DNA of 64,000 nucleotides, from positions 248,001 to 312,000 of the forward strand of contig NZ_AP018929.1 of the NCBI RefSeq assembly GCF_008326425.1, written 5' to 3'. Below are positions 1 through 23,472 of the stretch, one piece after another. Within the stretch, counting starts at the first letter, position 1. Each line of letters starts with the position of its first letter. Source of the DNA: Sulfuracidifex tepidarius (lineage in GTDB: Archaea > Thermoproteota > Thermoprotei_A > Sulfolobales > Sulfolobaceae). Below the pieces are notes generated by a model. It made no database searches and was not told the DNA's origin. It worked only from the letters and a program-made list of their open reading frames with translations. A program made the position numbers and the translations under genes.

Positions 1-2
1 AC

Positions 3-194
3 TTCAGGAGAATCACGGAAGAGACGAACCCTGCTTATGCCTATGCGGTCTACGGATACAACTACGTTTTCGTGTACAGTAGCGAGCTAGAGCAGATATC
101 TGAGATGGGGTACAGGGTGTTTCATAGAGGATCTGTACACCCAGCACAGCTTAAAGTGAAGAAGTTTCTTGACTTCACTAATACAATTCTATAA
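3..194 (+). CDS. C-terminal end of an unidentified protein (partial)
   Basis: An open frame enters from the left edge and runs 63 codons to a TAA stop. The residues are rich in tyrosine and valine early (a YAYAVYGYNYVFVY stretch) and end in a charged helix-like tail (VKKFLDFTNTIL). No family is recognised from this fragment. The frame is unbroken and its codon use resembles the neighbouring real genes (AGG/AGA arginine). The start lies outside the window. Confidence 0.5.
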   Translation, partial: FRRITEETNPAYAYAVYGYNYVFVYSSELEQISEMGYRVFHRGSVHPAQLKVKKFLDFTNTIL

Positions 195-269
195 TGACCC
201 CCAAAGCCAAACTAAGACTCATCTATGGAAAGAATTTATCTTGATAGAGTTAAGGGGGAAAGACCCTGA

Positions 270-520
270 TTAGGGATGGTAGTCCTTACAGTGAAAGTGG
301 ATGGAAAAAGCCTTGTATTTCAATGGCAGTTGCAGGTAAGGCAGGAGTCACCGAGACACCTCCAAGCGAGGGTCTTGTATACGCTCCTGTTCATTAGTAG
401 TCTTCAGGACACGTGGAATATTCACTCAAGGTCAGGTAGGAACGACCCTGCTCTGCCTCTACCAGTCCTAGGCAAGGTAGAGCCATGAAGCAGGAAGCCC
501 CTCTTAAGGGCGGTGCAGTT
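270..520 (+). pseudogene. Relict 3' end of an IS200/IS605-type tnpB with its right-end structure
   Basis: The stretch is not a gene now, but its end (about 467-520) aligns with the tail of the tnpB pseudogene at 34.4 kb: both carry GGCAAGGT(A/G)GAGCC, then TGAA(G/T)CAGGAAGCCCC, then a short GC-rich hairpin and an AGTT. Positions 320-440 also match the minus strand of 52.74-52.83 kb, including ACACGTGGAATATTCACT in both. This is best read as the decayed C-terminus of a TnpB gene plus the element's right end, where the omega RNA is encoded in TnpB systems. Only about 250 bp survive, with stops in every frame. Seen: the alignments. Inferred: the element identity. Confidence 0.6.
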
Positions 521-849
521 AACAAAGAACATATTCCATTCTGGTATTTTACACAATTAACAGTCTTCGCAGAATCAAATTCATTATTACTTTCTAATGA
601 AAGAGTTACCTCCTCACTTCATAATCTGAGAAGTACTTATCAGCTACATGAAACTTTCTCATCAACTTTAGATCTCCAGTTTATGGAATTTACTATTTTA
701 TCTTAAATATGATATCTTTAAAAAGAATAAATTTCTAGATTAGAGAATTTTAATTTAAATTAGCAGGAATTTTCCTTTTAAAATCCTTATCTACGAGAAT
801 TTTTCTATAAAAAACGAAATAGTTTTAATCCTCTTTTTATATAGATCTT
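521..849. other. AT-rich intergenic stretch, no gene seen
   Basis: Very AT-rich, with short runs of A and T and no coding-like frame. TATA-like sequence lies at about 834-843, close upstream of the next gene. Nothing else recognised. Confidence 0.5.
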
Positions 850-852
850 TTG

Positions 853-1278
853 ATGGGATTATTCAGTCGAAGAAGATATGATAAGTACCAAATTGCGATC
901 TACTTATTACTTTGTTCCTCCATTGGGCTGTCCCCTACTGCGCTTCTTTACCTCTTTTACATTTTAGACAAGGAATACAAAATAAAGACCGGAGTCAAAT
1001 TCAGGAAGTGGTTCCACGGGTTCTACTCTAAGGACGTCAATGAAGTCCTATTTGATTTAGAAGAGAGAGGCTTGGTTATCCAAAGTATGAGGAAGAACGA
1101 ATACCATGAATGGCTGTATAAGATCAATCCCGATTCAATTGATGAAGCTAGAGAACAAGTGAAGGACTTAGAGCAGTTTGAGGAGCTTTTCCAGACTATT
1201 TCAAACATGCCGTTGATAGTAATGATGGATAGAGTAGACAGGATAAATCAGCGCAGATTAGGCTGGTTACATCTCTAA
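853..1278 (+). CDS. Small winged-helix-like protein (Panacea/SocA-like fold possible)
   Basis: The protein has 141 residues from the ATG at 853; a TTG codon directly before it is a weaker alternative. Residues 10-70 have the shape of a winged helix: a hydrophobic helix, LYILDKEY-like spacing, then KWFHGFYSKDV and a helix ending DLEERGLVI. This pattern (lysine/tyrosine helix, W-x-G-x-Y-S, then leucine-rich recognition helix) resembles the Panacea (DUF4065/SocA) group and other archaeal winged-helix proteins. The C-terminal half is an amphipathic helix (REQVKDLEQFEELFQTI) that could dimerise. It stands alone, with AT-rich DNA on both sides. DNA or protein binding is inferred; the exact family is uncertain. 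Confidence 0.65.
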   Translation: MGLFSRRRYDKYQIAIYLLLCSSIGLSPTALLYLFYILDKEYKIKTGVKFRKWFHGFYSKDVNEVLFDLEERGLVIQSMRKNEYHEWLYKINPDSIDEAREQVKDLEQFEELFQTISNMPLIVMMDRVDRINQRRLGWLHL

Positions 1279-1369
1279 TTTTAAACAGGATTTAGTTAAA
1301 TTATATATCTATATTGATAAATTCTAGGTGGGTAACTTTATTATTTAAAGCATGAGAACTAAGGATTAA

Positions 1370-3004
1370 ATGAATTTCAAGAGGTTAGCCTCAATCGTTT
1401 TAAGCTTCCTCGTGTTGTTGTCTTTCGTGTTTTTCGTCCCAACCGTGGGCTCACAAGGGATGAATGGAGCCCAAGCACATGTCTATTACTCTAGTTATAC
1501 AGTTGAGCTCCATTCTTCTTCCAGCCCGATCGGGGGCTTTGAAACACTGAGAATTACCAACTCTACCTTTAATGGTACGGTTAAAGGAGAGTTCACAGTT
1601 CAGGAGCAATCAACCACTTACATCCTTCATACTGGAAGCCTCAAGGAATACAAGGGTGTCTTGAACGTGACGTTAGGTACGAACGGAACTGTGTATGTGT
1701 CCTCTCCCGCCCCTATCATGGAGGTTAAGGTGACGTCTGGATCGCAACAGGAAATAGCTTGGGCTGGAACTCCTTCTACTAAAATAGAAGGTTACGCTTA
1801 CATTAACGGGTCAGGAGAGGTAGAGCTAATATTCCTCAACGGAACTGAGACTACCTCTGAGTCATTCAATGTCTCAGTGGGAGGGAAAGAAACATACAAT
1901 ATTGACGTTTACCTTAACGTCCCATCATTCCAGGTGAAGGAAACGAACACAAGGGAGGTTGGAGTTAACATACAGGGATTTGAGAGATATCATGAAGGAG
2001 AGTTCGCTTACGTAAACTCGAGCGTGGAGATCAAGGCAAATAACTCACCTTTCTCCGTTTCGACCTCTTACTTCGACGGAATGGAAGTCCCTTCCATGAT
2101 CTGGAGGGCCATGGTAATGAACTCATTCTCTGGGTTAGGACAATACAACGCATCCTTCATGACAGTAGAGTTCTTCGGAGTTAACGGCACTGAGGCGGGA
2201 ATGGTGAAGTCCACTTACGTCTCAAACCAAGTTGGTCTTGGAGGAGGCCTAGGTCATTTTGGAGTACAGAACTCAATGGAGCACTCTCGTCTATTGATAG
2301 TTCAATTTGAGGGAGTACATGTAGCTCAGGGTAAGTCGTTCTTGGTCGAAGTAGATGGTATGCCACTGATGGTACAATACGATAATGGGAACGTATCTAC
2401 GACAGCTTACGTGAACATGACCCACCAAGTTCATAGGGGAGCACTTGTAGAAGTCTTCTTAAACGGAACACACTTCGTCTTCGTCAACTCAAGTAATGTG
2501 ACAACTGTTCAACAAGTGAAAGCCACAGTGAAACACACGGTCATTAACGTTAACTCAACTCAGAGAGGTGCTATAGAAGCTGACATAAATTTCACTAGTT
2601 ACGCTGTTTTCAATTTCAGTGTTGCAAACTCCTCATTTGTTATCTACAAGAACGTGAGCGGTCACTTGGTTTTGCTCAACTCTAAGGACTACTTCATCAT
2701 TGACGGCAATGTCACTGTATTCTCAGATCCTGCTCAACAGTACTACCTTGTTTACACTTCCTACAATTCTGGATTAAGTGCACAGTCCATTAATGCTTCA
2801 TCGTCCAGCACTTCATCATTAAGCACAAGTACACAGTCTACCGGTACTTCTTCTCAACAGAGCACTTCGTTACAGAGTTCTTCCCCTTCATCCCAAACAC
2901 CTCAAGCTACCTCAACACCTCAAACGAATTACGCTATTTATATTGTTGCCATAATCGTAGTTATCGTGGTTGCAATAGGTATAGCTTACTTATTGAGGAG
3001 GTGA
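1370..3004 (+). CDS. Exported, glycosylated surface protein with C-terminal membrane anchor
   Basis: The protein has 544 residues. A signal peptide (lysine/arginine start, then a long hydrophobic stretch to about residue 30) is followed by a beta-rich ectodomain of about 430 residues with many N-x-S/T sequons. A low-complexity Ser/Thr/Gln stalk (about 470-520) and a final hydrophobic segment ending LLRR complete it. This layout is typical of anchored archaeal cell-surface proteins that sit in or on the S-layer, where the Ser/Thr stalk is O-glycosylated. A TATA-like TTATTTAAAG lies about 25 nt upstream of the ATG, so the mRNA is probably leaderless. No enzymatic motif is seen; substrate binding or an S-layer role are both possible. 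Confidence 0.7.
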   Translation: MNFKRLASIVLSFLVLLSFVFFVPTVGSQGMNGAQAHVYYSSYTVELHSSSSPIGGFETLRITNSTFNGTVKGEFTVQEQSTTYILHTGSLKEYKGVLNVTLGTNGTVYVSSPAPIMEVKVTSGSQQEIAWAGTPSTKIEGYAYINGSGEVELIFLNGTETTSESFNVSVGGKETYNIDVYLNVPSFQVKETNTREVGVNIQGFERYHEGEFAYVNSSVEIKANNSPFSVSTSYFDGMEVPSMIWRAMVMNSFSGLGQYNASFMTVEFFGVNGTEAGMVKSTYVSNQVGLGGGLGHFGVQNSMEHSRLLIVQFEGVHVAQGKSFLVEVDGMPLMVQYDNGNVSTTAYVNMTHQVHRGALVEVFLNGTHFVFVNSSNVTTVQQVKATVKHTVINVNSTQRGAIEADINFTSYAVFNFSVANSSFVIYKNVSGHLVLLNSKDYFIIDGNVTVFSDPAQQYYLVYTSYNSGLSAQSINASSSSTSSLSTSTQSTGTSSQQSTSLQSSSPSSQTPQATSTPQTNYAIYIVAIIVVIVVAIGIAYLLRR

Positions 3005-3034
3005 AAAAAAGAGTTTCATTCAAACTTTTGATAA

Positions 3035-3045
3035 TTTTTTCTTTC
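3035..3045 (+). terminator. T-run after surface protein gene
   Basis: A T-rich run (ATTTTTTCTTTC) begins about 30 nt after the stop codon of the surface protein gene. Archaeal RNA polymerase terminates at such U-tracts without needing a hairpin. Confidence 0.35.
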
Positions 3046-3268
3046 AATTATAGGTTTTCAATTTTATACAACATTTATGTTGATTATTGTGAATAGCTTA
3101 CAGATAAGCTTATCCTTAATTCATTTAACATGCTTTGGGTCGAAGGTGCTAAACCAAATAATTTTCCTTTTTTAAAAAAGAGATTTGGTTATAATTATTC
3201 AGATTTTTACTAATAGCTCCAAATTTATTATAATATTATTCCAGGGAAGTTAAAAGGAAGCGTAATTA

Positions 3269-3276
3269 CTTAAAAT
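3269..3276 (+). promoter_or_regulatory. TATA box of the aminotransferase gene
   Basis: CTTAAAAT lies about 26 nt before the ATG at 3298, the spacing expected for a leaderless archaeal transcript. The position supports that start codon. Confidence 0.5.
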
Positions 3277-3297
3277 CATGCTTAGACCATTATCTTT

Positions 3298-4455
3298 ATG
3301 GATAAAATTCTCATGCACGTCGGTCCTGTGACGATAAAGGACGACGTTCTTTTGGCAGGAGTTAAGAACAACGTGGGGTTCACGTCAAAGGAATTCGTGG
3401 ACGCTTTCTCCTCGTCCTTGAAGGGCTTGAGGTATATCACGAAAGCGAAATCATATCAGCCGTTCATAATCCCTGGTGGTGGCACGTCAGCTATGGAGAG
3501 TGTCACTTCCCTTCTGAGGAAGGGAGACAACGTCCTCGTGGTCTCTAACGGAGTCTTCGGGGACAGATGGGAATACATTCTAAAGAGGTACCCTGTGAAC
3601 GTAGACGTCCTGAGGCCGAAGCCGGGATACTACGTTAAGCCAGACGAAGTGAAGGAGATGACTGAGAAGAAAGAGTATAAGGTCGTCACGTTAACTCACG
3701 TGGAGACCAGCACGGGTGTGAGGGAACCAGTCAAGGAAGTGATCAGCAAGGTCAGGGACAACGTAGACCTGACAGTGGTGGACGGAGTGTCGGGAATGGG
3801 AGCAGAGGAGGTCAACTGTGAAGACTGGGGAATAGACGTTTACCTTTCAGCTAGTCAAAAAGCTTTGGGCTCCACACCCGGTGCAGGCCTCCTCGTATTG
3901 TCTGATAAGGCCGTGAATTCCATATCAGAGGACTCTGTTGCGGGCTATTATCTGAACTTGAAGAACTGGTTACCAGTCATGAGGTCAATGGAGGAGGGAA
4001 AGGCATCGTATTTCGCCACTCCTCCGGTTCACACTATCCTCCAGCTCAGCAGAGCTCTGGCTGAAGTAGAGAAAGAAGGAATAGACAACAGAGTGAGAAG
4101 GCATCAGGTAGTTTCCGGGGCGATCAGGGCCGGAGTAGAAAGCATGGGCTTCAGCACGGTAGCTAAGTTACCTGAAAGCTACAGCAACAGTGTGACCGGT
4201 GTTGAGTTGAAGAAAGCCGACCCTAAGAAGGTTATGGAGATGAGCTTGTCAGAGGGAGTTGAGTTCGCCCCAGGCGTGCACCCAGCCTTCAAGTACTTCA
4301 GGATAGGCCACATGGGATGGGTTACTCCAAACGACGCTGTGGTAACCATCAGTGTGCTGGAGAGAGTCCTGAAGGAACTAGGAGAGGACATCAGGCTGGG
4401 AGAAGGCTTGAGGGCTGTGCAGGAGTTCTTAGACTCCAAACAAGAAAGACATTGA
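3298..4455 (+). CDS. Class V pyridoxal-phosphate aminotransferase (serine-pyruvate/alanine-glyoxylate type)
   Basis: The protein has 385 residues, normal for the family. Visible family marks are the GGGTSAMES phosphate-binding loop (about 60-68), THVETSTG (about 133-140), [10 protein letters not shown] with the PLP-ring aspartate (about 161-170), and the Schiff-base lysine 188 in SASQKALG. The family transfers an amino group between small amino acids and 2-oxo acids such as pyruvate or glyoxylate in the cytoplasm; the exact substrate cannot be told. Archaea also use relatives in serine and glycine metabolism. The gene has its own TATA box and precedes the lipoate operon by about 60 nt, in the same direction; co-regulation is possible but not shown. 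Confidence 0.9.
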
Positions 4456-11772: not shown

Positions 11773-12039
11773 ATGGCAACTTGTCCAGTTTGTGGAATGG
11801 ATGTGGATGAAGGGAGTAACCTCAAGACAATGTATAAAGGGAAGGTTTACTATTTTTGTTCAGACGGTTGTAAAAGGGCTTTTCAGTCCAACCCTGAGGA
11901 ATACATAACTGGAGGGCCTAAAGGGATGCCCTCTTCTGGTCATGAACATCATGAGCACCATCACGAACATCACGAGCACCATCACGAACATCACGAGCAC
12001 CATCACGAACATCACGAGCACCATCACGACTGTTGTTGA
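11773..12039 (+). CDS. copM: Copper chaperone CopM: YHS/TRASH domain with histidine-rich tail
   Basis: The protein has 88 residues. Residues 1-48 form a YHS/TRASH-type metal domain (CPVCGMDV, then YYFCSDGCKRAFQSNPEEY), which binds copper or another soft metal. The last 30 residues are a nearly pure His/Glu tail built of HEHHEHH units and ending DCC. In the Sulfolobus cluster CopM is the small metallochaperone between the regulator and the CopA exporter, and it presumably hands Cu(I) to CopA; the tail would give extra copper binding or sequestration. It has its own TATA box and is probably leaderless. The tail is encoded by 21-bp repeats, so its length may vary between strains. Confidence 0.88.
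   Translation: MATCPVCGMDVDEGSNLKTMYKGKVYYFCSDGCKRAFQSNPEEYITGGPKGMPSSGHEHHEHHHEHHEHHHEHHEHHHEHHEHHHDCC
11941..12030 (+). repeat. 21-bp tandem repeat encoding the CopM histidine tail
   Basis: Three exact copies of the 21-bp unit CATCACGAACATCACGAGCAC (11959-12021) are flanked by an 18-bp diverged copy and a partial one. Each unit encodes HHEHHEH. Exact repeats of this length can expand or contract by slippage without breaking the frame. Confidence 0.85.
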
Positions 12040-12091
12040 GCTTAGTTTCATTCTATTTTTCCAACCGTATCTTTCTTTTTAGGTGATTATC

Positions 12092-14338
12092 ATGGAGGAC
12101 AGAACCGAAAATAAGGAGACTGAAAATAAGGAAAGTGAAGATAAGAAGGTGGAGAAGGAAGCCAAACTCAGGATAGGGGGGATGCACTGTGCTTCTTGCG
12201 TTAACACTGTATCTCACGCTTTGAAGAACGTTAGAGGAGTCGAGGACGTAGACGTTAACTTAGCTACGTCCTCGGCAAAGGTGATAATGTCGAGCGACGT
12301 GAGACTGAAGGACGTAGTGAGGGCAGTGAAGAAGGCAGGATACGACGTTATAACGTCGAGGGGTACGATCAGAGTTAACGTGTTACCCGAGGACATGTCT
12401 AAGGTCAGAGCGCTGGTGGAGTCCATGGACGGGGTCGTGCAAGTGTTAGATAACCCCGGTCTGGGTACACTAAACGTGGAGTTCAACCCAGAGGAGACCT
12501 CGATTCAGGGGATAACGCAAGCCCTTTCTCTATCGGGCTATCGCGCTACAGTGATGGAGTCAGGGAAAGAGGAGGACGTTTTGAAGAAGGACTTCAGGGA
12601 AAGGTTAATCAGGTTACTTGTAGGGGTAGCAGTGCTCCCCGCCGTCCTTCTCACACACGGGGTAGTTCAGTTAGTCCTATCCATTCCGGTCCAGTTCTAC
12701 TCAGGGTTGACCTTTCATAAGGGGTTCCTGAGGGCACTGGAGAACAAGAACGCCAATATGGACACACTTGTCTCACTTTCTTCCAACATACTCTGGTTCT
12801 CCAGCGTCTACTTCCTGTTCATGGGGAAGCAGACCTTCTTCGACGTAGCGTCAATGTTGATAACCTTCGTCTTGGTGGGAAAGACATTGGAGGCCTACCT
12901 GAAGTACAGGATTTCCTCTCAGGTAAAGGTACCGGAGATCAAGGCTGTGACGAAGGACGGTAGGACTGTGAATGCAAGGGAACTTAAAGAGGGAGACATA
13001 GTGGTGGTCAAGTCCGGAGAGACCATACCTGCTGACGGAGTGCTGGAGGACGGAAAAGGTGTAGTAGACGAATCCCTCATGACGGGGGAGAGCGAGCCCG
13101 TGTTCAAGGTAAAGGGAGACAGACTCATAGCTGGTTCGATCCTGGTCTCTGGGTACCTAGAGGAATACGTGACTACTCCTTTCGAGAGGAGCTACATCAA
13201 TACCGTGGTGGAGACCCTTCGCGAGGCTTACAATGCCAAGGTGTCTATTCAGAGGACCGTGGACAAGGTCTCTTCCTGGTTCACTCCTTTCATTTTACTC
13301 ATCTCTGGAATTACGTTTGGGATCTGGTTTAGGTTGACTGGAGATGTAGTTGCATCAATGCTCTTTGCGGTCTCAGTCCTCGCAGCTGCATGCCCTTGTG
13401 CGCTCGGCTTGGCCACTCCCATGGCTATCCTGGCTAAGGTAAACCGGGCAATGAGGAGAGGGATCATCATCAGGAACGGGTCGGCTCTGGAAGAGCTCAA
13501 CAAGGTTAGGGTGATAGTCTTAGACAAGACAGGTACTTTAACTACCGGTAACTACAAGATAAGCTATTTCAAGGAGTACGTACCTAATGCTATGGAGATG
13601 GCCTCAGCCCTCGAAGGGAGGAGCTCTCATCCTATAGCGAAGGCATTTCCTAAATCCTCCATGAGAGTAGAATCATTCGACGAGTTCGTCGGCAACGGAA
13701 TTTACGGTAGAGTTGGAGGCCACGACGTGATAGTGGGGAAGCCCTCCTTTGTGAGGCAGAACTGTGATGTAGTAGAAGGAGTTGAGGGGGATCTTTTCGT
13801 CTGCGTCGATGGAAAGATCGGAGCTACGGTGAGCCTGAAGGAGGAACTCAGGGATGGAGCTGTGGAGTCAATTGAGGCGTTGAAGAGGCGCGGATTCAAG
13901 ATCGTGATAGCGACCGGAGACTCAAGTAAGTCCGCTGACGAAATAGGGAAGCTTCTAGGTGTTGAAGTTCATAAGAGTCTATCACCAGAGGAGAAGGGCG
14001 ATTTAGCTAGGGACGCCCTATTCGTAGGTGACGGGGTCAACGACGCATATGCGATGAGGGAGGCTAAGGTAGGGGTTGCTGTATCAACTGGTTCTGACAT
14101 CGCTAAGTCGGCGGGGGACCTAGTGATAAGGGACATAAGCCAACTTCCAGACGTGATTAAGCTAGGAAAGAGTACTGAGGGCAAAGTGAAACAGAACTTA
14201 GGCTGGGCATTCGGTTACAACGCTGCAATGCTTCCCCTGGCGTCTGGAGTACTCTACCCGATTTGGCTATCCCCTGAATACTCTGCGTTGGCTATGTCGT
14301 TCAGTAGCGTAATAGTTAGTCTATGGTCTTTGATTTGA
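12092..14338 (+). CDS. copA: Copper-exporting P1B-type ATPase CopA
   Basis: The protein has 748 residues from the ATG at 12092, preceded by AGGTGAT. A charged tail of about 25 residues is followed by a metal-binding HMA domain with GMHCASC (about 30-36). A second HMA-like unit (about 92-155) keeps the fold pattern but has no CxxC. The membrane CPC motif (AACPCALGLATP) is at about residue 434, TGES at about 330, the phosphorylated aspartate in DKTGT at about 476, SSHPIAKA at about 510, and GDGVND at about 646. It pumps Cu(I) out of the cytoplasm at the expense of ATP. It lies 50 nt after copM and ends the cluster at a strong T-rich terminator. Confidence 0.95.
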   Translation: MEDRTENKETENKESEDKKVEKEAKLRIGGMHCASCVNTVSHALKNVRGVEDVDVNLATSSAKVIMSSDVRLKDVVRAVKKAGYDVITSRGTIRVNVLPEDMSKVRALVESMDGVVQVLDNPGLGTLNVEFNPEETSIQGITQALSLSGYRATVMESGKEEDVLKKDFRERLIRLLVGVAVLPAVLLTHGVVQLVLSIPVQFYSGLTFHKGFLRALENKNANMDTLVSLSSNILWFSSVYFLFMGKQTFFDVASMLITFVLVGKTLEAYLKYRISSQVKVPEIKAVTKDGRTVNARELKEGDIVVVKSGETIPADGVLEDGKGVVDESLMTGESEPVFKVKGDRLIAGSILVSGYLEEYVTTPFERSYINTVVETLREAYNAKVSIQRTVDKVSSWFTPFILLISGITFGIWFRLTGDVVASMLFAVSVLAAACPCALGLATPMAILAKVNRAMRRGIIIRNGSALEELNKVRVIVLDKTGTLTTGNYKISYFKEYVPNAMEMASALEGRSSHPIAKAFPKSSMRVESFDEFVGNGIYGRVGGHDVIVGKPSFVRQNCDVVEGVEGDLFVCVDGKIGATVSLKEELRDGAVESIEALKRRGFKIVIATGDSSKSADEIGKLLGVEVHKSLSPEEKGDLARDALFVGDGVNDAYAMREAKVGVAVSTGSDIAKSAGDLVIRDISQLPDVIKLGKSTEGKVKQNLGWAFGYNAAMLPLASGVLYPIWLSPEYSALAMSFSSVIVSLWSLI

Positions 14339-14367
14339 ATTCTCGTTTTAGACATGTCTATCCTCTC

Positions 14368-14395
14368 TCTTTCTTTTTTATTATTTTTTATTTTT
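14368..14395 (+). terminator. T-rich terminator after copA
   Basis: Several T-runs in a row (TTTCTTTTTTATTATTTTTTATTTTTC) begin about 30 nt after the copA stop. Confidence 0.5.
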
Positions 14396-14526
14396 CAATA
14401 AAAATAAGTATATTCAGCACTCGATGTATTTTCAGAGTTATCGGAAATAACCAAACGACATTTTCGCCTTAATGGAGAACTTTAATAGGGTTCTTCTCAT
14501 CAAAGGTCAAAGAATAGGTGATTAAG

Positions 14527-16607: not shown

Positions 16608-17465
16608 TTACTGTTGCTTCTGTTCTTGGTCATTTCCCCTCAAGTTAACTCTAATCAAGTTGTCAGGCAAGTTAACCAGAGTAGACAAATTGGGGTAGTA
16701 AGGTATCCCAAGCGCCATGTTGACGGAAGCGGGGTCGTTCTTAGAGGTCAGCGATCCAGCCAAGTAGAGCCTTATGGCCTTCTCCACGTCTAACCCAAGA
16801 TCCCTCAACTGTATTATCCTCCTCAGTTCATCGTCCTGTGGTAGCAGCCTGATCACCCTGACAGATATCAACTCTACACCTATCTCCGTGAGGAACGGTT
16901 TAAGTCCAGCAGAGACCGCGTTAGTTACGTCAGTAAGCTTCTTGAATATCTCGTACAGTTTAACGTAATTTATGATGGAACTGACTTCCTGGTCTATCAT
17001 GGGTGAAACGTATCTAGCCAAGTCTGCGTCCTTGAACACGTTTCCTCCAAACTGGACGTTGAATACCAACTTCGACGGATCGGTGACCCTGTAGTAAACA
17101 GCGACTTCGTAAGTTAATGGAACTAGATCTTGAGTCTGAGAAACACCTACTATTCTCACTTCATGTCTAGTAGTGGAAGCGTAGAAGACAATAGTATCAA
17201 ATGGTAAAGCGTTATACCTGAACCTTGACAGGAAGGAGGAGAGGGGGTTCTGCGGGCTCTGCACGTTATGAGTCCCGGGTGGTAACACGGCTTGGACTTG
17301 TCCCTGAATTACGACCACTGCGGTCTCGTTGGGCTGAACGAATATGATCGACTTTGACGTGACCTCTTCCTTAGGGTAACGAAATATAATCACATCTTCT
17401 GCCATCATAGAGGTGCCATTTTCCCTCTCCGTGGAAATTACGGAACCTCTGATTTGGAGTGACAT
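16608..17465 (-). CDS. SPFH-domain (stomatin/prohibitin-like) protein, copy A
   Basis: The protein has 285 residues. After a short N-terminus the SPFH core shows IIFRYPKEEVTSKSIIFVQP, VVVIQGQVQAVLPPGTHNV, and YEVAVYYRVTDPSKLV, then LARYVSPMIDQEV and LTEIGVELISVRVIRLLP. SPFH proteins oligomerise and organise membranes or scaffold complexes; this soluble-looking subtype (no clear membrane helix) resembles bacterial zinc-ribbon SPFH proteins. The C-terminal tail is polar (NDQEQKQQ). It is the last gene of a five-gene block and a near copy of the gene at 19.7 kb. Blocks of perfect identity alternate with diverged stretches, a sign of gene conversion. Confidence 0.85.
   Translation of the reverse strand: MSLQIRGSVISTERENGTSMMAEDVIIFRYPKEEVTSKSIIFVQPNETAVVVIQGQVQAVLPPGTHNVQSPQNPLSSFLSRFRYNALPFDTIVFYASTTRHEVRIVGVSQTQDLVPLTYEVAVYYRVTDPSKLVFNVQFGGNVFKDADLARYVSPMIDQEVSSIINYVKLYEIFKKLTDVTNAVSAGLKPFLTEIGVELISVRVIRLLPQDDELRRIIQLRDLGLDVEKAIRLYLAGSLTSKNDPASVNMALGIPYYPNLSTLVNLPDNLIRVNLRGNDQEQKQQ
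16631..17465 (-). repeat. Direct duplicate A of the SPFH coding sequence
   Basis: It matches 19711-20545 at a constant offset of 3080 bp. Identity is perfect over 16631-16886 and 17223-17465, and nearly so over 16987-17105 (one mismatch); the pieces between are clearly diverged. Confidence 0.95.
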
Positions 17466-17944
17466 TTAAGAAAGGTTAAGGAAGATAAGCTGAAAAAGTT
17501 TTTGATAAATTATACATTCATATAGAAGGTAAGTTTTCTCAAATAAAAAGTTTAGATACAAAAAATGGAAATCTAGAAGAGTTTGCGGATAGTTAGTCCG
17601 TGCTCGTTAAATGTTCCATAATGAAGTCTAAGCATGAGTTCCAAGAGAACTTTTCCCATTTCTTTGGAAGCTGTAACCACAAGCTAATCCTTCTTATTAC
17701 AGTACCTGAGGAAAGATTAAACAGGTAACATCAGACAAAAAACCAAGTACTATACTTCCTCAGACCTTAAAAGCCAAGGCGGGCATATGTCAGTTCGTAA
17801 TTATGAGCTAGAAAGGAATTATTATGCAATTTCATCTTGCTCTTTATAATCTAAGCTAGTGTAAATAACATGATATATTCTCTTATTACAAAAAACTAAG
17901 TTAAAAAGTATTTAAGAGACTTTAATTCCTCATTTACAGTAAGT
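17466..17944. other. Intergenic region inside the SPFH block, no gene recognised
   Basis: AT-rich, no coding-like frame on either strand. A TATA-like GTATAATTTAT (minus strand, about 17506-17516) probably belongs to SPFH gene A. Confidence 0.45.
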
Positions 17945-18415
17945 TCATTGGAAAGAAGGGAAGAACAAGTTTTGTCTTTGTGCTAGAACCAATCTCATCT
18001 CGTCTAAAATTGAGTTTATAGAATTTATATCACCAAGATTTGCATTATCATAAAGTAAATTCGCCAAGCTTACTAATCTAACGTCGTTTTGAACTATGGT
18101 CTCCAACGCCTCTGAGGTTATTTTATACCTCGCATAAACGTCAGCTCCTCCACCTTGCATGGTAGCCATGTCGGCTACAAGCGACCTTATCTTCGAATTT
18201 AATAACTCTATTTGTTTTATGTTTGGAGAGAATGGATTATTTTGTGCTATTAGCGACTCCTTCTCTGAAAGCTTTGAAAGCGAATTTTCCAGGTGTTGTC
18301 TAACGTAGTTTCTTATGAGCATGTCGTCTTGTCTTATGAGATCCTTAACCTTGTAACCTCTATAGCCAGGCACTAAAAGTTGTAATTTCTCAAGAGGAGT
18401 TAGTTCTTTTGACAT
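17945..18415 (-). CDS. Coiled-coil protein with a GYRGYK motif, SPFH partner
   Basis: The protein has 156 residues. Near the N-terminus is LLVPGYRGYKVKDLIRQDD followed by a helix MLIRNYVRQHLENSLSKLSE; the rest is helix-rich and polar. Bacterial SPFH (zinc-ribbon/virion-core-like) genes are, as far as I recall, often accompanied by a small helical protein with a GY-x-GYK motif followed by an arginine/aspartate-rich helix, and this protein fits. It could bind or regulate the SPFH oligomer. It lies between the two SPFH genes on the same strand. That partnership is inferred from context and motif. Confidence 0.6.
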   Translation of the reverse strand: MSKELTPLEKLQLLVPGYRGYKVKDLIRQDDMLIRNYVRQHLENSLSKLSEKESLIAQNNPFSPNIKQIELLNSKIRSLVADMATMQGGGADVYARYKITSEALETIVQNDVRLVSLANLLYDNANLGDINSINSILDEMRLVLAQRQNLFFPSFQ

Positions 18416-18564
18416 GAGTGATAGTCTTTTCCCCTAAAATAAAAATCTTTTCCGTCAAATACAGAAAAACATTGCTAGAAAGAAACAATGCTAAATTCAG
18501 AAGTTACCTTCGGTGTATTTTCGGGAAGTTCACGAAAAGATTCCTGACTCATCTCTCTTTACCA

Positions 18565-19026
18565 TCAGTTTCTCCTTAAATTCAAGTTAGTTTTAGATTG
18601 ACTTTCCTCCTTTTTGCTGAACATCAGTGTGGCTAATGACCCAGAGAACAGCCCGTTGAAAAGTATCGATACTATGATCAACCCTATGAAAGTCTGTATG
18701 TAGGGAGTGTGTACAGCATAAGGTAAGAGAGAGAATATCAAATATCCTATTATTCCAAAAATTGAGAGATATCTTACCTGACCTAGCTCGCTGTTGAGAG
18801 ACTTTACAGTTATAGGATATGCAAACAACAACATTAATCCGAGTACGACTAGTTCCACTAAAGCGAGAACCGGATACGAGAAGACTATCAGCAAAGGCGA
18901 TATTAGGATAGGGAAGGGAGGGTAGAAAAGCTTAGCAATAAGGTCGAAAACAGTAATAACTATTGTCAAGAGTAAGGCATATATTATTCCTGCGCCCACA
19001 TTCCATGCGAATCTCCTCGACTCCAT
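18565..19026 (-). CDS. Four-helix membrane protein of the SPFH block
   Basis: The protein has 153 residues and four hydrophobic segments (about 10-30, 38-70, 86-104 and 112-135), with a charged C-terminal tail (FSKKEESQSKTNLNLRRN). No family is recognised. Its place between the SPFH pair and the exported protein suggests it anchors the module in the cytoplasmic membrane; that is inference. Confidence 0.6.
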   Translation of the reverse strand: MESRRFAWNVGAGIIYALLLTIVITVFDLIAKLFYPPFPILISPLLIVFSYPVLALVELVVLGLMLLFAYPITVKSLNSELGQVRYLSIFGIIGYLIFSLLPYAVHTPYIQTFIGLIIVSILFNGLFSGSLATLMFSKKEESQSKTNLNLRRN

Positions 19027-19263
19027 TCCGTCTCACTATGAATATTTAGAAAACCAAAGGTAAAAAACATATTCATCCATACACTATAAATGTTTAGTGA
19101 GGGAGAATAGAGGAATTTTCATCTCTCAGGTATATCGGAAGACTTGCCTTGATTCCAGGTAGAGAGTAAAGCCACGTATGTTATGAAATTGAAAAACTAA
19201 CATTGTGTTGAATTAGAAATATAACAGTTGATGAATGTTTTAGCGAAAAAAATAAAAGGTTTA

Positions 19264-19713
19264 TTATCTTCTAGTCAAGAAAAATATTACTGCAAGCACT
19301 CCGAACCCTAAACACACTATTCCCGCTACAAAAGAATATTCCTTTCCTACAGTGGAAGAATGTGCATACTGAACGTCGTAGTAAATTGTAGATGAAGCGT
19401 TGTTTATATTGTGAACTAATATCTCTCCTCCACTCGATGAAATGAAACAATACACGTAGACTATGCTGTCGTTCTCGCTAGTAGCCCCTGGCGGTAACAT
19501 AGAAACTGAGAGAGGAGTAGTGGAGTTTAGACTGATTATCACTTGTGAATCGGAAGGGTATTTAATTGGAAAGCTAGAGTTAGCGGGGACGTTCACCTCG
19601 TTAGAAATTGATGTAAAAGACGATGAAGATACAGAAAACGCTATTAAAGCAACTCCTATCGCTATCAATGCTATAGATGATAACATCTTAGCTTTTCTTC
19701 TCATTTTCACCAT
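19264..19713 (-). CDS. Exported or bitopic small protein of the SPFH block
   Basis: The protein has 149 residues: a basic N-terminus (KMRRKAK), a hydrophobic helix (about 10-28), a polar ectodomain of about 90 residues rich in Ser/Asn with N-x-S/T sites, and a C-terminal helix followed by TRR. The ATG at 19713 overlaps the end of SPFH gene B by 26 nt; a second ATG at 19686 sits one base after that stop. The basic stretch before the helix favours the longer form. It should span the membrane twice with the middle outside. Function unknown. Confidence 0.55.
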   Translation of the reverse strand: MVKMRRKAKMLSSIALIAIGVALIAFSVSSSSFTSISNEVNVPANSSFPIKYPSDSQVIISLNSTTPLSVSMLPPGATSENDSIVYVYCFISSSGGEILVHNINNASSTIYYDVQYAHSSTVGKEYSFVAGIVCLGFGVLAVIFFLTRR

Positions 19714-20545
19714 TTCCCCTCAAGTTAACTCTAATCAAGTTGTCAGGCAAGTTAACCAGAGTAGACAAATTGGGGTAGTAAGGTATCCCAAGCGCCATGT
19801 TGACGGAAGCGGGGTCGTTCTTAGAGGTCAGCGATCCAGCCAAGTAGAGCCTTATGGCCTTCTCCACGTCTAACCCAAGATCCCTCAACTGTATTATCCT
19901 CCTCAGTTCATCGTCCTGTGGTAGCAGCCTGATCACCCTGACAGATATCAACTCTACACCTATCTCAGTGAGGAAGTTCTTCAGTATTGCTGTGACTCCA
20001 GTAGTTATGTCGTTAAACTTGCTGTAGATTTCAGACAGCTTGGCGAAGTTCATCACTTGGCTAACGTCCTGGTCTATCATGGGTGAAACGTATCTAGCCA
20101 AGTCTGCGTCCTTGAACACGTTTCCTCCAAACTGGACGTTGAATACCAACTTCGACGGATCGGTGACTCTGTAGTAAACAGCGACCTCATAAACCAAGGG
20201 GACTAGGTCCTGAGTCTGACTGTTTCCAACCACTCTGATCTCGTGTCTGGTGGTGGATGTGAAGTACACTATTGTATCGAATGGCAAAGCGTTGTACCTC
20301 ATCCTTGACAGGAAGGAGGAGAGGGGGTTCTGCGGGCTCTGCACGTTATGAGTCCCGGGTGGTAACACGGCTTGGACTTGTCCCTGAATTACGACCACTG
20401 CGGTCTCGTTGGGCTGAACGAATATGATCGACTTTGACGTGACCTCTTCCTTAGGGTAACGAAATATAATCACATCTTCTGCCATCATAGAGGTGCCATT
20501 TTCCCTCTCCGTGGAAATTACGGAACCTCTGATTTGGAGTGACAT
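19688..20545 (-). CDS. SPFH-domain (stomatin/prohibitin-like) protein, copy B
   Basis: The protein has 285 residues, as copy A at 16.6 kb, and is nearly identical over residues 1-80 and 195-277. It differs mainly in two short regions, FDTIVYFTSTTRHEIRVVG and QDVSQVMNFAKLSEIY with the helix after it, and in the C-terminal tail (NGENEKKS). The first region is in the SPFH beta core, the second in the helix that in SPFH proteins leads into the oligomer interface. Two subunits with different contact faces would allow hetero-oligomers. It is the first gene of the block; a TATA-like stretch lies just upstream. Confidence 0.85.
   Translation of the reverse strand: MSLQIRGSVISTERENGTSMMAEDVIIFRYPKEEVTSKSIIFVQPNETAVVVIQGQVQAVLPPGTHNVQSPQNPLSSFLSRMRYNALPFDTIVYFTSTTRHEIRVVGNSQTQDLVPLVYEVAVYYRVTDPSKLVFNVQFGGNVFKDADLARYVSPMIDQDVSQVMNFAKLSEIYSKFNDITTGVTAILKNFLTEIGVELISVRVIRLLPQDDELRRIIQLRDLGLDVEKAIRLYLAGSLTSKNDPASVNMALGIPYYPNLSTLVNLPDNLIRVNLRGNGENEKKS
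19711..20545 (-). repeat. Direct duplicate B of the SPFH coding sequence
   Basis: Partner of 16631-17465. Recombination between the two direct copies would delete 3080 bp, including the three genes between them. Confidence 0.95.
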
Positions 20546-20867
20546 AATCCTTTATTTATATTTTGTCTTTATTAAGGTTATTCATTTTTAAGTGTTTTTT
20601 ATTTTAGAAATGCTAGATAATCTCTCAAATCTGGACTGAGTCATAGAAATAACTGATAGTTAAGAAAATAATACCGATTTTTCATTTCTAGAGATACTTT
20701 TTAATTTCTCGAGGGTGAATTAATGAACATAACAGACACAAGTAGTGCTTTTTAGAGAAAATTTAGCTTAAGTTTCTAGTTAGCGTTGATAACTTTCTTA
20801 TATTACATTAAAAATAATATATCTCTCTGGGAAGCTGATCCAAAAAGGAGACGAAAACGGAAGGAGC
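20546..20867. other. Intergenic region upstream of SPFH gene B
   Basis: AT-rich. Minus-strand TATA-like sequence (AATAAAGACAAAATATAAATAAAGG) lies within 35 nt of the SPFH B start. No other feature seen. Confidence 0.4.
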
Positions 20868-22968: not shown

Positions 22969-23472
22969 ATGAGGTTGGCTACCCATTACGTCTTCACTAC
23001 AGGAGTGCTTGCCTTGTTCTTCAGCTATTTCACCTCTTACTACCTGGTCCTTGCAGGGGTCTTGGCTGTCGCGGGGAACCTCATCATAGACGGACTTGGC
23101 CATAAGGAAATACACACCAGACGGGGGACGATACCTACCAGGACTCCGTTGACCCACACTGTCCCTAGGTCTGTGGTCTGGGGCATGTTACCGTCTATAC
23201 CTTTCTTCGCTCTCGGTCTCCTCGTCGGTGACTTCCCGTGGTTCCTCCTCCTGTCTATGGCGATAGGTCCTTCACATATGCTCCTGGACGTCTTCACTGA
23301 GGCGGGGATATATGTGAAGAGGGACGGGAAATGGAGGAGGTATGCTTTAGCTCACTTCAGGTACAACAACCCTCTAGCTAACGGGGTGGCTATCCTCCTG
23401 GGGTTCCTCATGTTGGTCCTTTCCCTGCATGGAAGCTATCATTATTATAGTGTATATAAATATTTTTTATAA
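22969..23472 (+). CDS. DUF1286 membrane protein
   Basis: The protein has 167 residues with four or five hydrophobic segments. Conserved-looking polar spots within the membrane regions are NLIIDGLGHKEI, RTPLTHTVPRSVVWG and GPSHMLLDVFTEAG, which together offer histidines and aspartates that could bind a metal. This pattern matches DUF1286, a Sulfolobales-rich family distantly like the YdjM membrane-bound hydrolases. Activity is unproven. A TATA-like TATAAGATG lies 28 nt before the ATG, so the transcript is likely leaderless. Confidence 0.8.
   Translation: MRLATHYVFTTGVLALFFSYFTSYYLVLAGVLAVAGNLIIDGLGHKEIHTRRGTIPTRTPLTHTVPRSVVWGMLPSIPFFALGLLVGDFPWFLLLSMAIGPSHMLLDVFTEAGIYVKRDGKWRRYALAHFRYNNPLANGVAILLGFLMLVLSLHGSYHYYSVYKYFL

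Follow-up and report, generated by a model that had tools for sequence, protein, structure and literature searches.

The locus raises the question of how two neighbouring genes can be identical over most of their length and clearly different in two short interior blocks. The window, a 64,000-nucleotide stretch of the genome of the thermoacidophilic archaeon Sulfuracidifex tepidarius, contains two SPFH (membrane-scaffold) genes, A and B, of 858 nt each, which lie 3,080 bp apart, are both transcribed from the - strand, and align without gaps with 87 mismatches. The pair and its segments are as follows.

16608..17465, - strand: SPFH gene A, 285 aa ORF (Band_7 PF01145, E=4.1e-22), the transcriptionally downstream copy
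19688..20545, - strand: SPFH gene B, 285 aa ORF (Band_7 PF01145, E=1.9e-23)
17223..17465, - strand: converted segment E1 of gene A, codons 1-81, 243 bp with 0 mismatches, equal to 20303-20545 in B
17106..17222, - strand: diverged block B1 of gene A, codons about 82-120, 36/117 differ, counterpart 20186-20302 in B
16987..17105, - strand: converted middle M of gene A, 119 bp, counterpart 20067-20185 in B
16887..16986, - strand: diverged block B2 of gene A, codons 160-193, 40/100 differ, counterpart 19967-20066 in B
16631..16886, - strand: converted segment E2 of gene A, about codons 194-278, 256 identical bp, counterpart 19711-19966 in B
16608..16630, - strand: diverged C-terminal tail of gene A, 10 differences (16611-16630), where homology stops

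Identity between the copies begins exactly at the A of the ATG, the last eight codons differ, and the 5' and 3' flanks are unrelated. The sole mismatch of the 119-bp middle is at position 17088. In 20,000 permutations of the variable sites, which together with constrained-tree tests (see below) stood in for GENECONV, neither of the observed identical runs of 156 and 133 variable sites was ever reached (0/20,000; the longest permuted run was 85), and the middle run of 66 variable sites has a permutation P of 0.00075. The mosaic and its coordinates, first described in a sequence-only reading of this DNA, are thus exact; the C-terminal tail with its 10 differences was omitted from that description.

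The window genome (G000) is a single contig of 2,560,765 bp with exactly two copies in distinct flanks. The same A/B arrangement is present in a second member of the genus (G025), an independent one-contig genome of 2,191,724 bp, with the same gene order and neighbours (a GNAT gene on one side and an MFS transporter on the other) and the same mosaic. Among the 31 family genomes searched, two copies occur only in these two; genomes of the other genera carry a single SPFH copy, except for one in which nothing matched. No comparable intact pair was found elsewhere in the class among 229 genomes, two drafts of the same class giving several weak or broken SPFH matches. A third genome of the genus, a draft (G026, 71% complete), has a single gene on one contig (L035 / L003, UBA167 draft, 1-3605), in which a B-type upstream side with the MFS gene is joined to an A-type 3' end with the GNAT gene, and 70 N (2313-2382) fall at block 2. 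The LVPGYRGYK gene expected between the copies is absent from this 71%-complete draft. Either the assembly has collapsed the two copies into one here, or a real deletion has removed the DNA between the direct repeats; the contig was left out of the comparison, for which both copies are resolved in n=2 species.

Comparison of these two species separates the segments into two classes. Synonymous differences between the paralogues of the window are absent from E1 (0/57), M (0/21) and E2 (0/62), and those of the second species number 4/56, 0/20 and 6/62 respectively, whereas between species 78-96% of synonymous sites in these segments differ (pS 0.94-0.96 in E1), which is saturation. The core of M (codons 127-159) differs between paralogues at 0/99 positions in both species and is 79% identical between them. 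In B1 and B2, 74-80% of synonymous sites differ between paralogues, and dN/dS in the blocks is uninformative and cannot be calibrated because dS is saturated. Constrained trees with outgroups included favour the paralogue-within-species topology by 360 lnL units for E1+M+E2 and the A|B-across-species topology by 35.6 lnL units (AU p<1e-4) for B1+B2; each block singly rejects the alternative topology (B2 AU p<0.001). When the orthologue alignment proposed in the sequence-only reading is run on the second species, the blocks thus flip to A-with-A and B-with-B and the end and middle segments group by species. Paralogues in E1, M and E2 are closer to one another within a species than to their orthologues, the signature of concerted evolution, and B1 and B2 have the form of a divergence peak, with blocks older than the species split in homogenised surroundings.

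Given the within-species likeness and topology of E1, M and E2, conversion postdates the species split in both lineages. The claim of repeated conversion is therefore strongly supported, since the converted segments are alike within, and not between, the two species. As read from these comparisons, E1, M and E2 were converted independently in at least two species, the blocks have stayed unconverted since before the species split, the A and B types are older than that split, and the duplication itself predates it. In gene coordinates the segments span nt 1-243, 379-479 and 580-835 in the window, and the runs of variable sites span 13-240, 366-486 and 634-828 in the second species, so that the edges lie within 3 to 13 bp of one another at three boundaries and ~54 bp apart at the fourth; such differences would be as expected of independent conversion events.

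These data also bear on whether the pair could be an assembly artefact, as the sequence-only reading had itself cautioned, or a gene duplicated recently, one copy of which then took up foreign segments. Near-identical direct repeats are a classic assembly problem and the contig of the draft G026 looks collapsed, but the same pair with distinct flanks in two independent one-contig genomes rules against collapse or artefactual duplication. The A and B blocks are not recent imports, as they group by type across species and cluster together as a monophyletic group against the other genera in a block protein tree. An origin of either kind is thus extremely improbable.

The origin of the pair is suggested by the genes lying between the two copies, as follows.

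19264..19713, - strand: small membrane-protein gene (TM19264), an ORF with an orthologue at the equivalent place in the second species
18565..19026, - strand: membrane-protein gene (TM18565), normally found near the single-copy SPFH gene of other Sulfolobaceae
17945..18415, - strand: gene of the 'LVPGYRGYK' protein, usually adjacent to SPFH where other Sulfolobaceae have one copy of it

The order of transcription is B, TM19264, TM18565, LVPGYRGYK, A. The ATG of TM19264 (19711-19713) overlaps the end of gene B and coincides with the 3' limit of A/B identity and conversion. At the single-copy Sulfolobaceae loci compared for synteny, a small membrane-protein gene, the counterpart of TM18565, lies beside SPFH in 19/19 and the LVPGYRGYK gene is within the locus in 17/19. 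The order from B to A would fit a tandem duplication of such a module, after which each end lost one partner gene; TM19264 was examined as a candidate leftover of that duplication and has scattered homologues elsewhere.

That the blocks have resisted conversion may reflect selection or a neutral barrier. Residues fixed by type across the two species number 14 and all lie in the 79 block codons, and the 12 residues fixed by species all lie in the 199 codons outside them. The block 2 protein sequence is 77% identical among other genera, with A or B matching those genera at 56-57% and each other at 47-50%, and within type across species it is constrained again (B-B 85%, A-A 74%). Sites that are conserved elsewhere and changed in A or B make up 9/22 in block 2 versus 8/87 in the converted parts (Fisher p=0.001). 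Judging from these identities, block 2 changed rapidly in A and B alike.

The fate of the pattern under short-tract conversion was then simulated from the state at speciation over random parameter draws. The scheme is simple (one lineage, uniform initiation, flat priors), includes mismatch rejection and end anchoring, and represents selection as the rejection of tracts touching type-fixed codons. The observed pattern was retained in 26/2,785 neutral draws (0.9%) and in 465/2,785 draws with selection (17%), or in 5 and 139 draws under a strict criterion, so that the pattern persists about 18-28 times as often with selection as without it. In most neutral runs the two genes become uniform throughout, or the middle island is lost as well.

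In the neutral account chance divergence of the blocks reached 27-40%, at which they paired too poorly for conversion to proceed, without any selection for two types. The block divergence is indeed high enough to impede pairing, and the 26/2785 neutral draws that retain the pattern, in which tracts are short and mismatches strongly rejected, show that it can arise in this manner. These are rare in the parameter space sampled, however, and the account predicts neither the 14 type-fixed residues nor the faster change of block 2 in both copies; moreover, the 100-bp middle island is perfectly converted in both species in spite of diverged DNA on both sides. We consider a purely neutral barrier unlikely. 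Given the type-fixed residues, the acceleration of block 2 and the simulation, selection against converted alleles in the blocks is favoured as the best explanation, and the earlier suggestion that selection keeps two variants apart is supported to this extent, although it is not proven.

A history consistent with these observations can be proposed. In the ancestor of the genus, a three-gene module (LVPGYRGYK, SPFH and small membrane protein) would have been partly duplicated in tandem, which left the SPFH gene in two copies at a distance of 3 kb. Since then, ectopic conversion in short tracts has repeatedly copied one gene onto the other at codons 1-81, 127-159 and 194-278, and codons about 82-126 and 160-193 have escaped it and retain an A type and a B type. 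Conversion in Sulfolobus acidocaldarius proceeds in short, discontinuous patches (PMC4471258), and a converted island of 100 bp between unconverted blocks is thus mechanistically ordinary. Converted alleles within the blocks would be selected against because the blocks probably form the SPFH2 strand and helix surface between neighbouring subunits, and the shared parts (the N-terminal membrane-side half, alpha2-alpha3, and the last strand and coil) would need to stay matched. We regard this combination of module duplication, conversion outside the blocks and selection against conversion inside them as the probable explanation of the locus.

The part played by the blocks can be considered from the predicted fold. 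Both proteins match the Band_7 profile well above its curated cut-off (79.5 and 83.9 bits versus 23.6) and fall below the NCBIfam HflK equivalog cut-off (21-22 bits versus 159.4), and a profile search of PDB sequences with the SPFH protein gave no significant match. An AlphaFold model of B, built from a 27-sequence alignment, has a moderate mean pLDDT of 72, with the majority of block residues in its better-predicted portion (block means mostly 82-89), and Foldseek searches with it match stomatin (E 5e-11), a bacterial SPFH complex (3e-10) and prohibitin (9e-10) with a probability of 1.00; the fold matches thus comprise stomatin, HflK/C, prohibitin and erlin. In this model B1 corresponds to the SPFH2 strands 91-97, 100-110 and 116-127, M to the helix 130-136 and most of the helix 146-165, and B2 to the end of the helix 146-165 (alpha3) together with the helix 174-195 (alpha5). 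The sequence-only reading had assigned the blocks to the SPFH beta core and the helix before the oligomer face; they cover the three SPFH2 strands, the end of alpha3 and alpha5, and not the whole core.

In the human PHB1/2 ring, adjacent SPFH2 domains make contact through beta8 with alpha3 and through alpha5 with beta7 (PMC12624060). Taking the elements in order, the diverged blocks hold beta7, beta8 and alpha5, and the converted middle holds most of alpha3. It is plausible on the model and this analogy that the blocks are subunit-contact elements, although the correspondence is only partly matched because most of alpha3, a main PHB1/2 contact helix, is converted. The earlier mention of an interface is likewise plausible from the predicted fold and the published ring contacts, and is best taken as an interpretation of them.

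If the blocks are contact elements, A and B may assemble together, as different subunits, into a single mixed ring or cage, in the manner of HflK/HflC, PHB1/PHB2 and Erlin1/2, a proposal by analogy to which we give somewhat less than an even chance. These too are paired paralogous SPFH proteins with a matching fold, and the divergent parts of A and B lie on their contact elements. The pair described here differs in that its C-terminal coil is short and an N-terminal transmembrane helix is not evident. A conversion mosaic like that of A and B is not known for PHB1/2 or Erlin1/2, and for A and B a mixed ring is suggested by the position of the blocks. A more specific and tentative proposal is that the two unconverted blocks are complementary contact surfaces of an obligate mixed archaeal SPFH ring in which the rest is held identical; a ring of one kind of subunit would then have become a two-subunit ring inside a single genus.

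It is also possible, and we put this forward with similar reserve, that A and B are kept apart as two separate, non-mixing homo-oligomers, or that the blocks bind different partner proteins. This variant leaves the history proposed above unchanged apart from why selection acts, and the sequence evidence for it is identical; the different 5' regions of A and B, whose expression may differ, would accord with it. Against it, related SPFH pairs that share a compartment (Erlin1/2, PHB1/2) co-assemble (PMC12624060), and the identical remainder of A and B would favour mixing.

The evolutionary pattern is already known, and the protein family and lineage are new for it. The divergence peak of the primate red/green opsins is an established case of one kept by selection against conversion (Teshima and Innan model; PMC3924837), and there too neighbouring duplicates are homogenised except around the sites of a selected functional difference; the SPFH pair differs in being archaeal and in having two protected blocks with a converted island between them in one short coding sequence. 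The methanogen paralogues mtrA-1/mtrA-2 show long-lasting, domain-limited conversion (PMC4632066) and are likewise archaeal and at one locus, with one part long homogenised and another distinct, but their distinct part is a transmembrane domain gained by fusion, whereas the SPFH blocks are inside one homologous domain. In the Tigriopus GOT1 paralogues islands of divergence are also reported to persist against conversion (PMC3728101), but these encode an enzyme in a eukaryote, and the SPFH blocks are followed across two species. A survey across prokaryotic genomes names 26 genes in concerted evolution, and neither SPFH nor Sulfolobus appears in its main text (PMC6053082).

The pair is a clear case of lasting concerted evolution of protein-coding genes in the Sulfolobales. 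It is also a clean natural experiment, repeated independently in two species, with conversion removing all but the parts in which the paralogues probably need to differ. With a young, putatively two-subunit SPFH pair beside single-copy relatives in other genera, the origin of HflK/HflC- and prohibitin-like pairs becomes testable, and if the obligate mixed ring is true, conversion would in effect have traced the contact surface between subunits.

Several other features of the region were noted. The module of LVPGYRGYK, SPFH and small membrane-protein genes is conserved in Sulfolobaceae (17945-19026; L034, L037-L055), with the LVPGYRGYK gene inverted relative to SPFH in G025 (L034:8414-8893), L041 and L050; neither the LVPGYRGYK nor the small membrane protein has a Pfam match above cut-off. 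Directly upstream of B (20546-20585) is a short ATG-led frame (MNNLNKDK-like) kept in three species, which is in frame with SPFH in G025 and G026 and ends at a TAA stop in the window, and is either an alternative start or a conserved leader. A bacterial promoter scan, which does not model archaeal promoters, gave nothing above shuffles, and no defence-system families were matched. The YdjM-like gene is a single intact copy in the window (22969-23472), and in G025 it is partly duplicated (L034:13601-15192) around an inserted small ORF (14114-14497). A small metal-binding protein encoded at 11773-12039, directly upstream of a copper-type P-ATPase gene (12083-14338), is YHS/TRASH-like as judged by eye and carries a tandem HEHHEHHH tail.
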